This document shows positions 12,769-22,686 of a stretch of DNA of 64,000 nt, piece after piece. Every line of letters begins with the position of its first letter. Positions within the stretch are counted from its first letter, which is position 1. The stretch is from Brevibacterium sp. XM4083 (lineage in GTDB: Bacteria > Actinomycetota > Actinomycetes > Actinomycetales > Brevibacteriaceae): NCBI RefSeq assembly GCF_006489205.2, contig NZ_VFYR02000002.1, forward strand, positions 737,352-801,351, in the 5' to 3' direction. Both the position numbers and the translations under genes were made by a program. Under the pieces are notes generated by a model that was not told the origin of the DNA, made no database searches, and saw only the letters and a program-made list of their open reading frames with translations.

Positions 12769-13983
12769 TCACACGCGCACGCCCCCGAGCCACACCTGGT
12801 CCACCCGGTCCTCGATGCCGCGGACGTCGTCGGTGCTGAGGTCCCCGTCGACGAGGACGAGGTCGGCGAGGAGGTCAGCAGCGATGCGCCCCCGGTCGTC
12901 GTGCCCGAGGAGGTCGGCGGCCACCGAGGTGCCGGCGGCGAGCGCCTCGGCCCCGGAGAGTCCGGCGCCGGCGAGCAGGCTGATCTCCTCGAGGTTCTCC
13001 CCGTGCGGGCCGACTCCGGCGTCAGTGCCCATCGCGATCCGCACCCCCGCCTCGTGGGCGCGCACGATCGAATCGTGGTGGGCGTCGATGACGGCCTTCG
13101 CCTTGTCGATGACCGACTGCGGCATGTTCGCCCCCGCCTCGGCGGCCTTGATGACGGCCCGCGGCGCCTGAAGGGTGGGGACGAGGAACGTGCCGTGCTC
13201 GAGCATGAGGTCGATCGCCTCGTCGTCGAGGTAGATGCCGTGCTCGATCGAGCGGACACCGGCGCGCACCGCGGCCTTGATCCCCGGTGCGCCCTGCGCA
13301 TGGGACATGACGTGCGCGCCCTGGGCGGTCGCCTCGGCGACGATCATCGCGATCTCAGCGTCGGAGAACTGGGAGTGCCGCGGATCGTCCCGCGGGGAGA
13401 GGACCCCGCCGGTCGAGCAGATCTTGATGTGGTCGGCGCCGGCCCGGAGCAGCTCACGGGCCTTCCTCTGCACCCCTTCGACACCGTCGGCGACCCCCGA
13501 GGGGCGACCGGGGTGGGCGGCGAGGAACGGGGACTCGGCCCCGGAGACGAGGTGGTTGTCGCCGTGCCCGCCGGTCTGGGACATGATGTTGACGGCGATC
13601 GTCAGCCGCGGCCCGGGCACGACCCCGGTCTCGACGGCCGTCTTCGTCCCGAGGTCGGTGCCTCCGGCGTCGCGGACCGTCGTCACCCCGCCGGCGAGCG
13701 TGTCGGCCATGTGCCGCACGGAGTTGTAGAACTGGAGGGAGAACGGGTCGTGGAAGGCCGAGACGTTCGCCGCGCCTGCGCTCATGAGATGGACGTGGCA
13801 GTCGATGATGCCGGGCACGAGCGTGCGATCGGTGGCGTCGACGAATTCGTCGTCGGCGTTGTGGGACCCCTGCCCCGCCTCGGTGATCGCGGTGATCCGA
13901 TCGCCGTCGACGACGACATCGCGCCGTCCGGGGACGAACCGGGTGCCGTCGAAGACCTTCGCGTTCGTGAAAACCGTGACCAT
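12769..13983 (-). CDS. Metal-dependent amidohydrolase (imidazolonepropionase/prolidase-like)
   Basis: The 404-residue protein has the amidohydrolase fold markers: a beta-sandwich start (TVFTNAKVFDGTRFV), the metal motif IDCHVHL, later His residues in MSHAQG and IEHGIYLD, and the catalytic Asp in MGTDAGVGPHG. Proteins of this shape hydrolyse cyclic imides or the bond before proline in small peptides; many are annotated Xaa-Pro dipeptidase or imidazolonepropionase-like. No histidine-utilisation gene is near, so a peptidase or lactonase role is more likely. GAGGAGA precedes the ATG at 13983. It is divergent from the Pls gene across 199 bases. Confidence 0.8.
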   Translation of the reverse strand: MVTVFTNAKVFDGTRFVPGRRDVVVDGDRITAITEAGQGSHNADDEFVDATDRTLVPGIIDCHVHLMSAGAANVSAFHDPFSLQFYNSVRHMADTLAGGVTTVRDAGGTDLGTKTAVETGVVPGPRLTIAVNIMSQTGGHGDNHLVSGAESPFLAAHPGRPSGVADGVEGVQRKARELLRAGADHIKICSTGGVLSPRDDPRHSQFSDAEIAMIVAEATAQGAHVMSHAQGAPGIKAAVRAGVRSIEHGIYLDDEAIDLMLEHGTFLVPTLQAPRAVIKAAEAGANMPQSVIDKAKAVIDAHHDSIVRAHEAGVRIAMGTDAGVGPHGENLEEISLLAGAGLSGAEALAAGTSVAADLLGHDDRGRIAADLLADLVLVDGDLSTDDVRGIEDRVDQVWLGGVRV

Positions 13984-14182
13984 GGGCGCTCTCCTCAGCA
14001 TCGTGGAATGGTGTCGCAGCGGGACCGGCCGACCGATCCCCGTGATCCTTCACATCTATCACGTCACCGTGTTCCACGTCATACCGGCGTTCACGTGCCC
14101 GACACCTTCTCCGGTTAAGATCATCAGCGAATACTCAGTCGGCGCTCACGGCGTCGACCTGGCAGCTCGATCCGGAAGTACT

Positions 14183-17100
14183 GTGACAGAACACGCCGCG
14201 CAATTCCCTGCCCAGCCCCGCCCCCGCGAGGATCGCACCCTCATCGATGTGCTCCTGGAGACTGCGGGCGCCCACGGCGACCAGCCCGCGATCGACGACG
14301 GCAGGATCGTGCTCAGCTACTCCGAGCTCATCGCCGACATCCGCGATCTCGCCCTCCGCCTCGCCGAGGCGGGCATCGGTCCCGGTGACAAGGTGGGGGT
14401 GCGTGTGCCGTCGGGGTCCGTCGACCTCTACGTCGCGATCCTCGCAACGATGATGCTCGGTGCCGCCTACGTCCCCGTCGACGTCGACGACCCCGATGAG
14501 CGGGCCCGCACCGTGTTCGCCGAGGCGGCCGTGACCGGGGTGATCACCGAGGGCCGGGCGATCGAGGCCCGCACCGCGCGGGGTCCGCTCGAGCGCACCG
14601 AGATGCGCGGGCCGACGCCCGACGACGACTGCTGGGTGATCTTCACCTCCGGATCGACGGGCACCCCGAAGGGCGTGGCCGTCTCCCACCGCTCGGCTGC
14701 CGCGTTCGTCGACGCCGAGGCGGCCCTTTTCCTCGCCGAGGAGCCGCTCGGTCCCGGTGACCGCGTGCTCGCCGGTCTCTCCGTCGCCTTCGATGCCAGC
14801 TGTGAGGAGATGTGGCTGGCGTGGCGGCACGGGGCCTGCCTCGTCCCCGCCCCGCGCGCCCTCGTCAAGTCCGGCATGGACCTCGGGCCGTGGCTGTCCT
14901 CGCGCGGCATCACCGTCGTCTCGACGGTGCCCACGCTCGCCGCCCTGTGGCCGGCCGAGAGCCTCGACGCCGTGCGCCTCCTCATCTTCGGCGGCGAGGC
15001 CTGTCCCCCCGAACTCGCCCGCCGCCTCAGCGACGAGGGCCGCGAGGTGTGGAACACGTACGGCCCCACCGAGGCGACCGTCGTCGCCTGCGCGGCCCTC
15101 CTCGACGGGACCGAGCCGATCCGCATCGGCCTGCCGCTCGACGGCTGGTCGCTCGCCGTCGTCGACTCCGCCGGCGCCCCCGTGGCCGAGGGTGAGACCG
15201 GTGAGCTCATCATCGGCGGCGTCGGCCTGGCCCGCTACCTCGATCCGGCCAAGGACGCGGAGAAGTACGCGCCCATGCCGAGTCTCGGCTGGGAGCGCGC
15301 CTACCGGTCCGGCGACCTCGTCGTCAACGATCCCGCCGGCCTCATCTTCGTCGGCCGCGCCGACGAGCAGATCAAACTCGGCGGTCGCCGCATCGAACTC
15401 GGTGAGATCGACGCCGCCCTCCAGGCACTGGCCGGCGTCGAGGGCGCGGCGGCAGCGGTGAAGACGACCCCGGCGGGCACGGACATCCTCGTCGGCTACC
15501 TCGCAAGCGCCGCCCCGGACGCGCAGGCGCGGATCCCCGCGTGGGAGGAGGCGCTGCGCGCCGAACTGCCGGCCGCGCTCGTCCCCCGCCTCGCCCTCAT
15601 CGACGAGCTGCCGACGAAGACCTCGGGCAAGGTCGACCGCGCCGCCCTGCCGTGGCCGATGGGCGGGGAGGCGGAGACCGCGGACAGCACCGAGGTGTTC
15701 GACCCCGCCACCGAATGGATCGCCGACCAGTGGACGGCGGTCCTCGGATCCCGCCCGGGTGCGGACACGGACTTCTTCACGGTCGGCGGCGGCAGCCTCG
15801 CCGCCGCCCAGCTCGTGTCCCGGCTGCGCGGCCAGCACCCGAGCGTCACCGTCGGCGACATCTACGCCCACCCGCGCTTCGGTGCGCTGGCCACTCTCTG
15901 CCTCGGCGACGACGGGGCCGCCGCTCCCGGACCGATCCGGGAGATCGGGCGGACGTCGAAGGGCATGCAGGCGTTCCAGACGCTGCTCGCGATCCCCGTC
16001 CACATCCTCGGCGGGGTGCGGTGGGTCGTCATCGCCATGGTGCTCGCCAACCTCGCGAACCTCCTCGGCGCCGACGTGCCCCGGACGCCGTGGCCGGTCG
16101 TCATCACCCTCTTCCTCGTCTTCGTCACCGCGTGGGGGCGGATGCTCATCTCCGCCGGCGCCGCGCGCCTGCTCCTCGCCGGGCTGAAACCGGGCGTCTA
16201 TCCGCGCTCGGGCTGGGTGCACAAGCGGCTGTGGCTCGCCGAGCACATCGCCGACCTCGCCGCTGCCGTCTCCGTCGCCAGCGCCCCCTGGGTGGGGTGG
16301 TACGCGAAGCTGCTCGGCAACCGCATCGGCCCCGACGCGGACCTCCATTCCGCCCCGCCGGTCACCGGTTTCCTCACCCTCGAAGGGGGTGCGGCGATCG
16401 AACCCGAGGTCGACCTCAAGGGCTGGTGGGTCGATGGTGACCTCCTGCGCATCGGCACGATCGTCGTCGGGGAGAACGCGACTGTCGGCGCCCGGTCGAC
16501 GCTCATGCCCGGGACGCAGATCGGTGCCGGGGCGCTCGTCGAAGCCGGTTCCGCGGTGACCGGCAAGGTGCGGCGCAACCAGATCTACTCGGGCTCCCCG
16601 GCCGTGCGCATCGGCAAGGCGAAGAAGACGTGGCCCGCCCCGCCGCAGCGCCGTCGCCTGCCGTTCCTCTTCTACGCCGCCGGCTCCCAGTTCAACGCCG
16701 CCCTGCCCTACCTCGCCGCGGTGCCGGGGCTCCTCCTCATGGTCGCCGTCTCCGGCATCTCCGTCGTCGAGAACCCGTGGCTCGTCCTCGCGTGGTCACC
16801 GGTGCTCGCCTGCGTGTGGTTCGTCTGCACGGCCTTGTTCATCCTCATCTCCGTGCGCGTCCTCGCCATCGGCATGGAGGAGGGCGAGTTCCCCGTCCGG
16901 TCGGCCCGCGGCTACCGGGTGTGGGCGACCGAGCGTCTCCTCGACCTCGCCCGCGACCTCCTCTTCCCCCTCTACGCCTCGATGCTCACCCCATGGTGGC
17001 TGCGGGCGCTCGGGGCCAAGGTCGGTCCCGGCACGGAGATCTCCACCGTCGTCTTCGTCCCGAAGATGACGACGATCGCCGCCGGCGCCTTCCTCGCCGA

Positions 17101-18118
17101 CGACACGATGGTCGCGAGCTACGAACTCGGCCACGGGTGGATGCGCGCGGGCCGGGCGAAGGTCGGCAAACGGGCGTTCCTCGGCAACTCGGGCATCGCC
17201 TCACCGGGCAGGCGGGTGCCGAAGAACGCGCTCGTCGCCGTGCTCTCGGCAGCCCCGGCGAAGGCGAAGAAGGGCTCCTCGTGGCTCGGGTCTCCCCCGG
17301 TGCAGCTGCGCCGGGCCGCCGTCGACGCCGACGAAGCGCTCACCTACGCCCCGAAGCTCGGCGTGAAGATCGCCCGCGGCATCTTCGAGACGCTGCGGAT
17401 CACCTCGGTGATGGTCGGCGGCGCGCTCGTCGCCGCAGTCATCCTCACGATCATCGCCCTCCTCGGCGTCCCCGGCGGACCGGCCTCCCCGGCCGGCGGC
17501 TTCCTCGCCTCCGTCGGGCTCGCCCTCCTCACCTCCGGGGTCGTCATGATGGTCGCCGGCGCAGTGGCCGCGGGCTTGGCGGTCATCGCGAAATGGGTCT
17601 TCGTCGGCCGGATCAGCCCCGGGGACCACCCGCTGTGGTCGTCGTTCATCTGGCGCGGCGAAGTCGCCGATTGCTTCGTCGAACTCGTCGCCGCCCCCTG
17701 GTTCACCCGCAACGCCGTGGGCACCCCGGCGATCGTGTGGTACCTGCGCGCGATGGGGGCGAGGATCGGGCACGGCGTGTGGTGCGAGTCGTACTGGCTG
17801 CCCGAGGCCGACCTCGTGCGCCTCGACGACAATTCGACGGTCAACCGCGGTTGCGTCGTCCAGACCCACCTCTTCCACGACCGGGTGATGAGCCTCGACG
17901 AGGTCACCCTCGAGGCCGGGGCGACGCTCGGACCCAACAGCGTCATCCTGCCCGCGGCGACCCTCGGGCAGAACGCGACGGTGGGGGCGACCTCGCTCGT
18001 CATGCGCGGCGAGTTCGTGCCGCCCCATGCGTACTTCAGCGGCAATCCTGTCATACCCTGGGTGGATGCACCTGAACTCCCTGAGCGCGCCCCGGTCGAG
18101 CACCCCGTCGATGCTTGA
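14183..18118 (+). CDS. Pls/PosA-type membrane nonribosomal peptide synthetase
   Basis: The 1311-residue protein matches the unusual poly-lysine synthetase architecture. An adenylation domain occupies about residues 20-500: FTSGSTGTPKGV near 152, FDASCEEMW with the amino-binding Asp near 210, NTYGPTEATVV near 291, GRADEQIKLGGRRIELGEI near 390 and the Lys of KTSGKVDR near 476. A carrier domain has the phosphopantetheine Ser in FTVGGGSLAAAQL near 537. No condensation or thioesterase domain follows. Instead there are about six membrane segments interleaved with three tandem blocks of left-handed beta-helix hexapeptides near 755-805, 960-1010 and 1210-1290. In Streptomyces albulus Pls these C-terminal blocks condense lysine iteratively. 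GTG is preceded by GGAAG. The substrate amino acid is not determined. Confidence 0.88.
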   Translation: MTEHAAQFPAQPRPREDRTLIDVLLETAGAHGDQPAIDDGRIVLSYSELIADIRDLALRLAEAGIGPGDKVGVRVPSGSVDLYVAILATMMLGAAYVPVDVDDPDERARTVFAEAAVTGVITEGRAIEARTARGPLERTEMRGPTPDDDCWVIFTSGSTGTPKGVAVSHRSAAAFVDAEAALFLAEEPLGPGDRVLAGLSVAFDASCEEMWLAWRHGACLVPAPRALVKSGMDLGPWLSSRGITVVSTVPTLAALWPAESLDAVRLLIFGGEACPPELARRLSDEGREVWNTYGPTEATVVACAALLDGTEPIRIGLPLDGWSLAVVDSAGAPVAEGETGELIIGGVGLARYLDPAKDAEKYAPMPSLGWERAYRSGDLVVNDPAGLIFVGRADEQIKLGGRRIELGEIDAALQALAGVEGAAAAVKTTPAGTDILVGYLASAAPDAQARIPAWEEALRAELPAALVPRLALIDELPTKTSGKVDRAALPWPMGGEAETADSTEVFDPATEWIADQWTAVLGSRPGADTDFFTVGGGSLAAAQLVSRLRGQHPSVTVGDIYAHPRFGALATLCLGDDGAAAPGPIREIGRTSKGMQAFQTLLAIPVHILGGVRWVVIAMVLANLANLLGADVPRTPWPVVITLFLVFVTAWGRMLISAGAARLLLAGLKPGVYPRSGWVHKRLWLAEHIADLAAAVSVASAPWVGWYAKLLGNRIGPDADLHSAPPVTGFLTLEGGAAIEPEVDLKGWWVDGDLLRIGTIVVGENATVGARSTLMPGTQIGAGALVEAGSAVTGKVRRNQIYSGSPAVRIGKAKKTWPAPPQRRRLPFLFYAAGSQFNAALPYLAAVPGLLLMVAVSGISVVENPWLVLAWSPVLACVWFVCTALFILISVRVLAIGMEEGEFPVRSARGYRVWATERLLDLARDLLFPLYASMLTPWWLRALGAKVGPGTEISTVVFVPKMTTIAAGAFLADDTMVASYELGHGWMRAGRAKVGKRAFLGNSGIASPGRRVPKNALVAVLSAAPAKAKKGSSWLGSPPVQLRRAAVDADEALTYAPKLGVKIARGIFETLRITSVMVGGALVAAVILTIIALLGVPGGPASPAGGFLASVGLALLTSGVVMMVAGAVAAGLAVIAKWVFVGRISPGDHPLWSSFIWRGEVADCFVELVAAPWFTRNAVGTPAIVWYLRAMGARIGHGVWCESYWLPEADLVRLDDNSTVNRGCVVQTHLFHDRVMSLDEVTLEAGATLGPNSVILPAATLGQNATVGATSLVMRGEFVPPHAYFSGNPVIPWVDAPELPERAPVEHPVDA

Positions 18119-19436
18119 TCCCTATACGCCGGGCGTCGGCAGTGCGGATCTGCTCATCGACCACTATGACATCGACCTCGACTACCGGATCGGGCCCAAC
18201 CGGTTGGCCGGGAAGGCGCGGCTGACCGGCCGGGTGCTCACGGAGACGTCGACGATCGTCCTCGATCTCACGGGGATGCGGGTGACGAAGGCGAGCGTCA
18301 ACGGCCGCAAGGTCCGCTACTCGCTGCGCGGGAAGAAGCTGCGGCTGAGCACCGAGGCGCTGGGGAAGAACCAGCCGGTGCGCATCGACATCGCCTACGA
18401 GGGCAATCCGCAGCCGGCGATCGGCACGTGGGGCGACATCGGCTGGGAGGAGCTCGAGGACGGCGTCCTCGTCGCCGGTCAGCCCGTCGGCGCCTCGACG
18501 TGGTTCCCGTGCAATGACCATCCCTCGAACAAGGCGAAGTTCCGGATCCGGGTGCTCACGGAGTCCGAGTACACGGTCGTGTCCAATGGCGACCTCGTCG
18601 AGAAGGTCCGCAAGGCCGGACGCACGGCGTGGACGTTCCAGTCGACGACACCGCTGGCGACGTACCTTGCGACCGTGCAGATCGGCCGGTACCGCAGCGC
18701 CGAGCTGCCCGCCCCGCCCGGTGTCGCCCCGAGCCCCGTGCCGCTGACGGTCTTCGCCGGTGAGGCCTGGCAGACCGCGGTCGCGCGCCTGCCCGTCCAG
18801 CACGCGATGATGACCCTCTTCGTCGACCGCTTCGGTCCCTACCCGTTCGACCGCTACGACGTCGTCGTGACGAACGAGGAGCTCGAGATCCCGCTCGAGT
18901 CGCAGCCGCTGTCCGTGCTCGGACCCAACCACCTCGGCCCCGAATGGGAGGCCGAACGGCTCGTCGCCCACGAGTTGGCCCACCAGTGGTTCGGCAATTC
19001 GCTCACCCCGAACAGTTGGTCGGACATCTGGCTCAACGAGGGCTTCGCGTGCTACGCCGAGTGGCTGTGGTCGGAGGAGACGGGGCTGATGAGCGCCGAC
19101 GAGTGGGCCCGGACCTGGCATCGGGCGCTCAGCGCCTCCCCGCAGGACATCGTGCTCGCCGATCCCGGGGGCCCCGACATGTTCGACGACCGCGTCTACA
19201 AGCGCGGGGCGCTCACCCTCCACGCTCTGCGGCTGACCCTCGGCGACGACGTCTTCTTCGCGTGCGTGCGCGAATGGACGACGCGGCACCGGCACGGCAA
19301 CGTCACGACGAGGGATTTCATCGACAGCGTCTCGCGCACGTCAGGGCGTGACATCGCCGAGGTGGTTCGTCCGTGGCTGACCGAGACCGCACTGCCGCCG
19401 CTGCCGTTACCCCAGCTGCCGCACGAGCAGGTCTGA
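18066..19436 (+). CDS. M1-family zinc aminopeptidase coupled to Pls gene
   Basis: A 456-residue gluzincin with the zinc site HELAHQWFGN near residue 302 and the second Glu in NEGFACYAEW about 20 residues later. The usual GAMEN exopeptidase motif is replaced by NEELEIPLESQ, as in other short actinobacterial M1 proteins. The N-terminal beta domain and catalytic domain are present; the long C-terminal helical domain of PepN is absent. No signal peptide is clear. The ATG at 18066 overlaps the end of the Pls gene by 53 bases; the ATG at 18111 would give an 8-base overlap and is a fair alternative. Overlap implies coupled expression, and trimming or degrading the Pls product is a reasonable inference. 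Confidence 0.85.
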   Translation: MHLNSLSAPRSSTPSMLDPYTPGVGSADLLIDHYDIDLDYRIGPNRLAGKARLTGRVLTETSTIVLDLTGMRVTKASVNGRKVRYSLRGKKLRLSTEALGKNQPVRIDIAYEGNPQPAIGTWGDIGWEELEDGVLVAGQPVGASTWFPCNDHPSNKAKFRIRVLTESEYTVVSNGDLVEKVRKAGRTAWTFQSTTPLATYLATVQIGRYRSAELPAPPGVAPSPVPLTVFAGEAWQTAVARLPVQHAMMTLFVDRFGPYPFDRYDVVVTNEELEIPLESQPLSVLGPNHLGPEWEAERLVAHELAHQWFGNSLTPNSWSDIWLNEGFACYAEWLWSEETGLMSADEWARTWHRALSASPQDIVLADPGGPDMFDDRVYKRGALTLHALRLTLGDDVFFACVREWTTRHRHGNVTTRDFIDSVSRTSGRDIAEVVRPWLTETALPPLPLPQLPHEQV

Positions 19437-20123
19437 GTCGCCGCTGCGCCCGACGGGTGCGAATCCGCGGCTGCGGTAGAGGTGGGCGGCGCCGTTGCCG
19501 TCCTCGACGGCGAGGCTGACAGCGCGGACCCTGGAGAGCCGGGCGAGCGTGAGGAGGACGTCGAGGAGGGCCCCGCCGATCCCCTGCCCCTGGTAGGCGG
19601 GGAGCACGGCGATCGAGAGCTCCGGGATGTCGGCGGCGACCCACCCGTAGCCGGCGAACGGCGCGGTGGCCTCTTCACCGGCCTCGTCTCCGACCTCGGC
19701 GACGAAGTCCGCCTGACCCGATTCGTCCTCGACCACCTCGGCGATGGCCCCGCCGTCTTCGGAATCGTCGTCGACGACGCTCGAGGCGATGACGGTCGAG
19801 TGGGGCTCGAGCCCGGCGATGAACGTCGCGTCCGCGGGAGCCTCCTCGTCGCCGGGGATCGCGGCGGGGTCGGCATAGCGCAGCCACGCAAGGCCGACGA
19901 TCTCCTCCCCGGCCTCGTCGTAGCAGGCCACGGCGAGGTCGCCTCGGCGTCCCCAGTCTGAGAAGTACGCCCGCGCATCGGGTCGGTCGACGAGCTCGGC
20001 GCGCGGAATCGTCGGCTTGTCCATCGACCAGTTGAAGGCGAGGTCGACGAAGGGGACGAACACCTCGTCGGGGGTGTCGGCCGGCAGGGGCCGGATCCGG
20101 GTGCGCAGATCGTGCTCGCTCAT
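19407..20123 (-). CDS. GNAT family N-acetyltransferase
   Basis: A 238-residue protein whose last third is a GNAT core: ELSIAVLPAYQGQGIGGALLDVLL is the strand 4 and acetyl-CoA pyrophosphate loop (Q/RxxGxG/A), and AVSLAVEDGNGAAHLYRSRGF the motif B strand and helix. The first two thirds are acidic, with a Glu/Asp-rich insert around residues 125-160. Substrate unknown. ATG overlaps the MATE stop codon (ATGA), so it is translated after the MATE gene; its 3' end overlaps the convergent M1 gene by 30 bases. Confidence 0.82.
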   Translation of the reverse strand: MSEHDLRTRIRPLPADTPDEVFVPFVDLAFNWSMDKPTIPRAELVDRPDARAYFSDWGRRGDLAVACYDEAGEEIVGLAWLRYADPAAIPGDEEAPADATFIAGLEPHSTVIASSVVDDDSEDGGAIAEVVEDESGQADFVAEVGDEAGEEATAPFAGYGWVAADIPELSIAVLPAYQGQGIGGALLDVLLTLARLSRVRAVSLAVEDGNGAAHLYRSRGFAPVGRSGDSDLLVRQLG

Positions 20124-21436
20124 GTCAGTCCCTTCTCTACCGCGGTGCGGATCCAGGTGTGGTTGCGCACGCGCCAGCCCAGGGTGAGCGCGCGCAGGCC
20201 GATGAAGCCGAGGCAGAAGGTCGCCCACAGTCCCAGCGCGCCCGGCCACAGCGCGGTGATGGGGATGAGGACGAGGGCGTAGCCGATGACGGCGACGAGC
20301 TGGGCCAGGGCGAGGTAGCGGGCGTCCTCGGCGCCCATGAGGACCCCGTCGAGGACGAAGACGTACCCGGCGATCGGCATGCCGAGGGCGAGGATCGGCA
20401 GGAGCCCGGTCAGCGTCGCGATGACGGCGGGGTCGGAGGAGAAGACGCGCGGGATGAGGCCGGAGCCGGCGAAGAGGACGAGCCCGACGATGATCCCGAA
20501 GACGATGCCCCAGAGGATGAGGCGGCGGTTGATCGCGGCGACGGCCTCGACGTTCCGCGCTCCGAGCTGGAGGCCGATGAGGGCCTGACCGGCGATCGCG
20601 AGGGAGTCGAGGGCGAGCGCGAGGGCGAAGAAGAGGCTCTGGGCGACCTGGATCGCCGCGAGCTCCGTCGTGCCGGCTGCGGTGGCGAGGACGACGAGGA
20701 CGATGAGGGACGCACGCAGGCTCGCGTTGCGCACGAGCAGCCAGCCGGAGGTCTTCGCCGAGGAGAGGACACCGGCCCAGTGGGGGCGGAAGCTCGCGTG
20801 GAAGCGGCGGGCCGCGCGGAGGCTGATGAGGAGGTAGACGGCGCACATGCCGGCCTGCGCGACGACGGTGCCGAGCGCGGATCCGGCGACGCCGAGGCCG
20901 AGGCCGTAGATGAAGAGGGCGTTGAGACCGATGTTCGCGACACAGCCGACGGCGGCGACGACGAGCGGGGTACGGGTGTCCTGGAGTCCGCGCAGCAGCC
21001 CGGTCGCGGCGATGACGACGAGCATGAACGGCAGTCCCCACCACGAGATCGCCAGATATGTCTGTGCCCCGGACGCGACCGCGGCTGCCGGTCCGAACGC
21101 GGCGATCGCCGTCGACAGCAGCGGCAGTCCGGCGACGAGGAGCGCCACCGAGGTGACGAGGGCGAGCCAGATGCCGTCGAAGCCGGCCCCGACGGCACCG
21201 CGGATGTCCCCGGCGCCCATCCGCTTGGCCACCCGCGGAGTCGTCGCATAGGCGAGGAAGATCATCAGTCCGAGCACGGTCTGGAGGATCGTCGAGGCGA
21301 TCGCGAGTGATCCGAGGGCATCGGCGCCGAGGTGGCCGACCATGGCCGTGTCGGTGAGCAGGAAGATCGGTTCGGCGATGAGCGCGCCGAGAGCCGGCAG
21401 CGCCAGCCGAAGTATGTCCCTGTCGATCGCTGCCAC
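20120..21436 (-). CDS. MATE family efflux transporter (DinF-like)
   Basis: About 438 residues with 12 hydrophobic segments. Segment 1 contains ALPALGALIAEPIFLLTDTAMVGHLG, the hallmark of DinF-type MATE proteins, and the second half repeats the pattern (NASLRASLIVLVVLATAAGTTELAAIQVAQSLFF). MATE proteins export cationic drugs or metabolites in exchange for Na+ or H+. GTG at 21436 gives the normal family length; no strong ribosome site is present and other starts are possible. With the downstream acetyltransferase it may form a small detoxification operon. Confidence 0.85.
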   Translation of the reverse strand: MAAIDRDILRLALPALGALIAEPIFLLTDTAMVGHLGADALGSLAIASTILQTVLGLMIFLAYATTPRVAKRMGAGDIRGAVGAGFDGIWLALVTSVALLVAGLPLLSTAIAAFGPAAAVASGAQTYLAISWWGLPFMLVVIAATGLLRGLQDTRTPLVVAAVGCVANIGLNALFIYGLGLGVAGSALGTVVAQAGMCAVYLLISLRAARRFHASFRPHWAGVLSSAKTSGWLLVRNASLRASLIVLVVLATAAGTTELAAIQVAQSLFFALALALDSLAIAGQALIGLQLGARNVEAVAAINRRLILWGIVFGIIVGLVLFAGSGLIPRVFSSDPAVIATLTGLLPILALGMPIAGYVFVLDGVLMGAEDARYLALAQLVAVIGYALVLIPITALWPGALGLWATFCLGFIGLRALTLGWRVRNHTWIRTAVEKGLT

Positions 21437-21486
21437 GCCTGCGAGTCTATCCAATCGCAGGTGCGGCGGCGATGAACGGGGCGGGC

Positions 21487-22686
21487 TCAGACGACTTCGA
21501 AGAGCCCGGCAGCACCCTGCCCGCCGCCGATGCACATCGTCACGACGACGTACTTGACGCCGCGGCGCTTGCCTTCGATGAGGGCATGGCCGACGAGGCG
21601 GGCCCCGGTCATCCCGTAGGGGTGGCCGACGGAGATGCCGCCGCCGTCGACGTTGTAGCGTTCCGGGTCGATGCCGAGCCGGTCCCGGCAGTAGAGGGCC
21701 TGGACAGCGAAGGCCTCGTTGAGCTCCCAGAGGCCGATGTCGTCGATCGTCAGACCGTGACGCTCGAGGAGCTTCGGCACGGCGAAGACGGGACCGATGC
21801 CCATCTCGTCCGGGGCCACGCCGGCCACGGCCATGCCGCGGTAGATGCCGAGCGGGCTGAGTCCGCGGCGGGACGCCTCGGTGTCGGACATGAGGACGGC
21901 CGCCGAAGCGCCGTCGGAGAGCTGGGAGGCGTTGCCGGCGGTGACGCTCGGATGCTGCGAGGCGACGCCGGGGTCGAGGACAGGCTTGAGTCCGGCGAGG
22001 CCCTCGAGGGTGGTCTCGGGGCGGTTGCCCTCGTCCTGGGTGAGCGTGACCTCTTCGGTCGAGGTCTCCCCCGTCGCCTTGTCGACGACGACCTTCGTCG
22101 TGGGCAGCGGCACGATCTCCGCGTCGAAGCGTCCGGCGGCCTGCGCGGCGGCGGTGCGCTTCTGCGATTCGAGGGAGTAGGCGTCCTGCTCCTCGCGGCT
22201 GACCCCGTAGCGTTCGGCGACGATCTCCGCGGTTGCGAGCATCGGGTAGTAGATGCCGGGCACGTTCTCCTCGAGCCACGGATCCTTCGCCCGGAAGGTG
22301 TTCATGTGCTCGTTCTGGACGAGCGAGATCGATTCGACGCCGCCGCCGACGGCGATCGACTGTCCGTCGACGATGATCTGCTTGGCCGCGGTCGCGATCG
22401 CCATGAGCCCCGAGGCGCACTGGCGGTCGACGGACATCCCGGCCACGGTGACGGGGAGGCCGGCGCGCAGGGCGGCCTGGCGTCCGATGTTCGTGCTCTG
22501 GCTGCCCTGTTGGAGGGCCGAGCCCATGATGACGTCGTCGACCTCCGCGCCGTCGACGCCGGCGCGCTCGACGGCGTGGGCGATCGCGTGGCCGGCCAGC
22601 TCCTGGGCCTGCGTGTCGTTGAAGGCGCCGCGGTAGGCGCGTCCGATCGGGGTTCTGGCGGTGGAGACGATGACGGCGTCGACCAT
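21487..22686 (-). CDS. Acetyl-CoA C-acyltransferase (thiolase)
   Basis: The 399-residue length is standard. The acyl-binding Cys lies at residue 90 in DRQCASGL, the catalytic His in [10 protein letters not shown] and the second Cys in [11 protein letters not shown] near the C-terminus. VESIS and the GGGISVGHP loop are typical of degradative or short-chain thiolases. The enzyme cleaves 3-ketoacyl-CoA or condenses acetyl-CoA. The neighbouring SDR gene (22830) encodes a 3-oxoacyl reductase, and together they could make or degrade 3-hydroxyacyl units, but no synthase (PhaC) or hydratase is present in the window. Confidence 0.92.

Follow-up and report, generated by a model that had tools for sequence, protein, structure and literature searches.

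Here, we describe a two-gene locus of Brevibacterium sp. XM4083 in which pls, encoding a synthetase of the Pls/PosA family, overlaps a gene for a two-domain M1 metallopeptidase. The window is the entire stretch of 64,000 nt that was analyzed, and all coordinates are counted from its first letter. The locus has the following features.

14183..18118, + strand: pls, encoding a predicted epsilon-poly-L-lysine synthetase of the Pls/PosA family (GTG start, 1311 aa)
14258..15649, + strand: adenylation (A) domain of Pls, residues 26–489 (match to PDB 7wew)
15713..15898, + strand: thiolation (PP-binding, T) domain of Pls, residues 511–572 (Pfam)
15974..18052, + strand: TIGR02353 terminal region of Pls, residues 598–1290 (NCBIfam, hydropathy, AlphaFold)
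Pls residues 602–620, 639–657, 844–862, 873–891, 1076–1094, and 1118–1136: hydrophobic segments (hydropathy scan)
18111..18118, + strand: overlap of the M1 start with the pls stop, 8 nt, ATGCTTGA
18111..19436, + strand: gene for a PldII-clade two-domain M1 metallopeptidase, 441 aa (Pfam, tree, model)
18969..19040, + strand: zinc motif HELAH-18-E in the M1

The synthetase has the architecture of Pls. The ORF contains AMP-binding, PP-binding, and hexapeptide-repeat domains by Pfam, and neither a condensation (C) nor a thioesterase (TE) domain was found at E ≤ 0.001. The A and T domains are followed by the terminal region, which scores 632 bits against the NCBIfam model TIGR02353 (Pls/PosA) at a cut-off of 423. 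Within the C-terminal half, a hydropathy scan identified six hydrophobic 19-residue segments (hydropathy ≥1.6); another one, at residues 79–97, lies inside the A domain and was excluded from the membrane count. In an AlphaFold model of residues 591–1311 (25 sequences, pLDDT 83.2), three helical hairpins are each followed by a beta-helix block, and the protein thus combines three membrane-helix pairs with three beta-helix blocks. The same hairpin/beta-helix terminal architecture is described for PosA (PMC10522769). The preliminary description of this DNA had proposed a Pls-type synthetase with A and T domains, six membrane segments, three beta-helix blocks, and no C or TE domain, and all of these are borne out.

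The A-domain code points to lysine as the predicted substrate. The code positions were placed by motif using what we take to be the GrsA numbering, and the residues are D204, A205, E208, S247, I268, G270, T292, V300, V301, and K483, i.e., DAESIGTVVK. The A domain matches PDB 7wew, the Pls of S. albulus named Epsilon-poly-L-lysine synthase, with 630 bits, and in this alignment the two codes are the same at 10/10 residues. The preliminary description had suggested a comparison with S. albulus Pls, and it yields a lysine code rather than a code for a non-amino-acid substrate. PosA, the delta-poly-L-ornithine synthetase of Acinetobacter baumannii, has the code DMEHNGTVSK, and lysine-activating members are reported to have an alanine at the position of its Met218 (PMC10522769). 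The window code has this alanine, and its positions are consistent with the PosA code and with the statement about alanine at the second position in that paper. Because several polymers are made within the Pls/PosA family (PMC10522769), the synthetase might take ornithine or diaminobutyrate and make another cationic polymer. However, the window code is that of S. albulus Pls, differs from that of the ornithine polymer synthetase PosA, and has the alanine of lysine-activating members; on the A-domain code, we rejected a polymer of a different diamino acid as highly improbable.

The second gene lies directly 3′ of pls, and its product has Peptidase_M1 and M1_N domains (Pfam), an M1 fold, an HEXXH-18-E motif, and a two-domain length. 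The best matches of its AlphaFold model (32 sequences, pLDDT 84.4) are two-domain Deinococcus M1 enzymes; the Deinococcus radiodurans two-domain M1 metallopeptidase (PDB 6a8z, 6ifg) is its best match in the PDB in both sequence and fold, has a similar length, and is ∼29% identical. P261, L262, and E263 of a P-L-E-x-Q stretch are invariant across 32 sequences, and this glutamate is presumably the counterpart of that in the usual M1 GxMEN motif. The longest M1 ORF begins at 18027, giving a 92-nt overlap with pls, and 18066 is a further alternative start. Among the 28 loci of the genus that have the M1, window included, 16 have the start closest to the pls stop at −8, seven have it at −4, and five have it at other positions. 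Because the near relatives of the window use the −8 start, we prefer the ATG at 18111 and disfavor 18027. The overlap with the 3′ end of the synthetase gene noticed in the preliminary description is, therefore, 8 nt at the best-supported start. By eye, no clear Shine-Dalgarno sequence lies just upstream of this ATG and, together with the overlap, this would fit translational coupling.

Beyond the two genes, a GNAT acetyltransferase gene and a MATE transporter gene (19407–21487, − strand) converge on the M1 gene, and a gene for an amidohydrolase (Xaa-Pro dipeptidase-like; 12769–14001, − strand) diverges from pls across 181 nt. Among 30 loci of the genus (window included), the GNAT and MATE genes are each present in 25 and the amidohydrolase gene in 17. 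All three were absent from the 117 loci outside the genus (L053–L169, ∼6 kb on each side), which rules them out as parts of the system.

The pls–M1 pair is conserved far beyond the window. TIGR02353 is matched over the cut-off in 105/394 genomes of the class and in 34/59 relatives, both sets containing the window's own genome. We compared 148 loci, i.e., 119 from the class (118 and the window) and 29 from relatives. The lysine code is present in 120 of these, with the M1 gene directly downstream or overlapping in 114 and at 2.2 kb in one; in five (L091, L106, L127, L152, and L162), the M1 is absent from the retrieved stretch. Within the class set, 95/119 TIGR02353 loci have the lysine code, and the M1 gene is directly downstream on the same strand in 89, at 2.2 kb in one, and absent in five, for two of which (G193 and G424) a close M1 is encoded elsewhere in the genome. 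By contrast, none of the 24 class loci with another or an unreadable code has the M1 directly downstream, although four have a different M1 ∼0.95 kb away. At the level of genomes, a close M1 (E ≤ 1e-85, a limit set after the search results had been seen) is encoded in 93/394 class genomes, comprising 92/95 with the lysine code and 1/299 others (Fisher p 2.7e-85, uncorrected for kinship). The location of the M1 gene in 89/95 loci and this co-occurrence exclude adjacency by chance, and the conservation of the pair in other actinobacteria, which the preliminary description had left to be checked, is confirmed. In the genus, 28/36 congeners score above the cut-off of TIGR02353, and an M1 match (E ≤ 1e-50) is present in 27 of these 28 and in 0/8 Pls-negative congeners; the Pls-positive congener without the match is G031. 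Among at least 594 relatives, the best 80 named loci, which are biased to near relatives because they are the best-scoring ones, all encode the M1 downstream (at −8 to 132 nt in 75 and 628–2169 nt in five), and 77 have the lysine code, the A domain being incompletely aligned in three. The nearest named genome among the matches listed is that of Brevibacterium sp. W7.2 (99% in the best segment).

Other arrangements were observed in the same survey. Two Brevibacterium loci, L192 (in G031) and L193 (in G020), encode a second, M1-less Pls type with the codes DAESIGTVIK and DAESIGSVIK, respectively; there is an internal TGA in that of L193. The best A domain of 14 loci (L053, L054, L070, L072, L073, L074, L075, L077, L079, L090, L125, L148, L151, and L165) has the code DIWQSTADDK; none of them has the M1, and in most of them this A domain and the TIGR02353 region are encoded by different ORFs. 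At L158, L159, L161, and L163, DFEY-code synthetases are followed ∼0.95 kb downstream by a signal-bearing M1 of another clade, with a 205-aa ORF without a Pfam match in between at L161 and L163. The DFEY-code synthetases and this M1 may be an independent case of a peptidase coupled to a synthetase, for a different polymer.

With its domains, A-domain code, gene overlap, conservation, and membership of the PldII clade, the window locus is a further member of the published pls–pldII operon. The NCBI taxonomy lists S. albulus under S. noursei. In this species, pls and pldII form one operon in that order, overlapping by 4 bp (PMC4361855); pldII is reported to be translationally coupled, and its product to be of the endo type (PMC9223678) and located outside the membrane (PMC9223678, PMC9205021). 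Synthetase family, A-domain code, and gene order are the same in the window, while the overlap is 8 nt rather than 4 bp. P0155, an M1 metallopeptidase of Streptomyces noursei, is taken here as S. albulus PldII; it carries D44, T45, D173, K174, T194, and E281, the residues given for PldII in PMC9223678, and so does its close relative P0149. In a 93-row M1 tree, P0155 groups with the M1 of the window and the other coupled M1s sampled in one 66-row clade (support 94/94) of 44 lysine-linked rows (window included; a chosen subset of 115 lysine-code-linked M1s), two unlinked rows from lysine-code genomes, 10 near hits, and 10 Streptomyces-type rows. Another 25 two-domain M1 rows lie outside this clade, and 24 of them have a leader by hydropathy measures. 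In a smaller tree without P0155, the corresponding group, including the leader-bearing M1 of L164, has a support of 99. At L164, the M1 is 63% identical to P0155 with its ATG at −4 after pls, and the A domain shares 82% identity with 7wew. As for the Brevibacterium synthetase itself, pls has been reported from cheese and skin Brevibacterium, with 14/15 Brevibacterium isolates having the gene, and the Pls of Corynebacterium variabile and of cheese and skin coryneforms including Brevibacterium shares family and lysine-type code with that of the window, no essential difference being seen in the available text (PMC8117764). Thus, the two-gene system for a cationic homopolymer proposed in the preliminary description is supported at the level of sequence, M1 included; the system is not a new one, pls–pldII having already been published.

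The M1 differs from S. albulus PldII in its predicted location. We scored leaders by the highest 11-residue mean hydropathy with a threshold of 1.6, i.e., a hydropathy threshold and not a trained predictor. From none of its three possible starts (18111, 18027, and 18066) does the window M1 have a hydrophobic leader (all <1.2), and by hydropathy it would, therefore, not be exported to the cell surface; for this reason, we file it as a PldII-clade protein and not as a surface PldII. P0155, by contrast, has a twin-arginine leader and a computed pI of 8.6, compared to no leader and a pI of 5.5 for the window M1. Among the 115 lysine-code-linked M1s, 113, window M1 included, score <1.6, i.e., have no signal peptide by this measure; the two others are those of L164, which has a twin-arginine leader, and L056, which is at the threshold and has no clear leader by eye. 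Among the homologues listed for the window M1 (120, of which 117 could be scored), 0 reach 1.6, while 63/117 scorable homologues among the 120 listed for the L164 M1 do so, 60 of these with an RR motif; at least one leader with an evident RR motif (P0177, at 1.55) escapes the measure. The Streptomyces branch containing PldII mostly carries a twin-arginine leader. By a like measure applied to the 60 residues before the conserved start, 20/21 unlinked two-domain M1s were flagged with a leader, a count that sets aside the leaderless L286 and L292 from lysine-code genomes. In g49, the genus of L164, which we infer to be Streptomyces because the L164 M1 is 98% identical to an S. abikoensis M1, a clear leader was seen by eye in L164 only among the 18 coupled M1s examined. 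Altogether, the coupled M1 is predicted to be cytosolic in Brevibacterium and in most sampled lineages, including much of Streptomyces. We did not retain a gain of the leader in PldII because the two trees disagree: PldII is nested within leaderless rows in the larger tree, L164 as the only leader-bearing row is sister to the rest in the smaller one, and a single leaderless group is not rejected by the AU test (p = 0.32). A search of the literature other than subscription papers (among them the 2010 PldII paper) returned no report of a leaderless PldII. What is novel here is that, in most of the lineages sampled, the coupled peptidase is predicted to reside in the cytosol.

The lack of a recognizable signal peptide makes intracellular clearance likelier than protection from polymer outside the cell, and it favors clearance or lysine recycling over surface self-protection of the S. 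albulus type. The M1 might nevertheless guard the cell from outside, either via a leaderless export route or because Pls tethers it to the membrane, and S. albulus PldII, which belongs to the same clade, is reported to be surface-located and its repression to lower tolerance (PMC9223678). The prevalence of leaderless coupled M1s, as opposed to the mostly twin-arginine PldII branch, and the lack of a membrane-like segment in the window M1 (top 19-residue mean hydropathy, 1.19) render this improbable. Thus, of the self-protective degrading enzyme envisaged in the preliminary description, a role in intracellular clearance is favored, and one at the outer surface is less likely. A second alternative is that the M1 trims chain length or recycles lysine without a role in immunity, coupling merely matching levels. 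The release of lysine is the expected chemistry, and CRISPR interference with pldII is reported to give chains of >40 residues (PMC9223678). However, the same interference lowers tolerance (PMC9223678), reviews state that Pls sets chain length, and inactivation of Pld and PldII left polymer yield and length unchanged according to the available text of one review (PMC8506220). We consider trimming or recycling alone rather doubtful; the last observation also weakens any strong role of the peptidase.

We suggest that the Brevibacterium locus is probably a copy of the pls–pldII operon with a predicted maker and exporter of epsilon-poly-L-lysine and a leaderless M1 that likely hydrolyzes the polymer inside the cell. 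The A domain would adenylate L-lysine and load the T domain, and the beta-helix/membrane region would form the bond between each alpha-carboxyl group and the epsilon-amine of the following lysine and move the chain out of the cell. For its translation, the M1 would depend on termination of pls. M1 aminopeptidases anchor a free alpha-amino group beside a carbonyl. Each residue of epsilon-poly-lysine would retain such a group, and the M1, being without the C-terminal domains that close the cleft in larger M1s, could admit a long chain and cut any bond. An open cleft and a free alpha-amino group on every residue would explain PldII as an endo-type aminopeptidase, an explanation of which we found no mention in the literature, judged by title and apart from subscription papers. 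In Brevibacterium, the M1 would then remove polymer that has remained in the cytosol or come back into it, giving back lysine. Re-entry into the producer is plausible because epsilon-poly-lysine is reported to cross the membranes of mammalian cells directly (PMC9606270). Three points temper this model. First, the location reported for S. albulus PldII is outside the membrane (PMC9223678, PMC9205021), as opposed to the cytosolic place predicted here. Second, the lysine-code genomes G079, G285, and G429 lack a close M1, and G249 has one without Pls. Third, cultured C. variabile is reported not to produce epsilon-poly-lysine, even though the gene is functional in S. coelicolor (PMC8117764), and loci of this kind may thus be silent.

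Epsilon-poly-lysine is used to preserve food; what it does in nature and how its producers resist it are poorly understood. The full two-gene set is carried by a nonfilamentous genus known from cheese and skin, and the absent export signal gives a simple, testable prediction of where self-resistance acts. More tentatively, and with less than even confidence, we propose that most actinobacterial Pls operons encode an intracellular, lid-less M1 hydrolase that is endo-acting via free alpha-amino groups and clears leaked or re-entered polymer, and that the exported PldII is a twin-arginine side branch, even within Streptomyces. If so, the S. albulus model of self-protection would rest on an exported PldII from a side branch.
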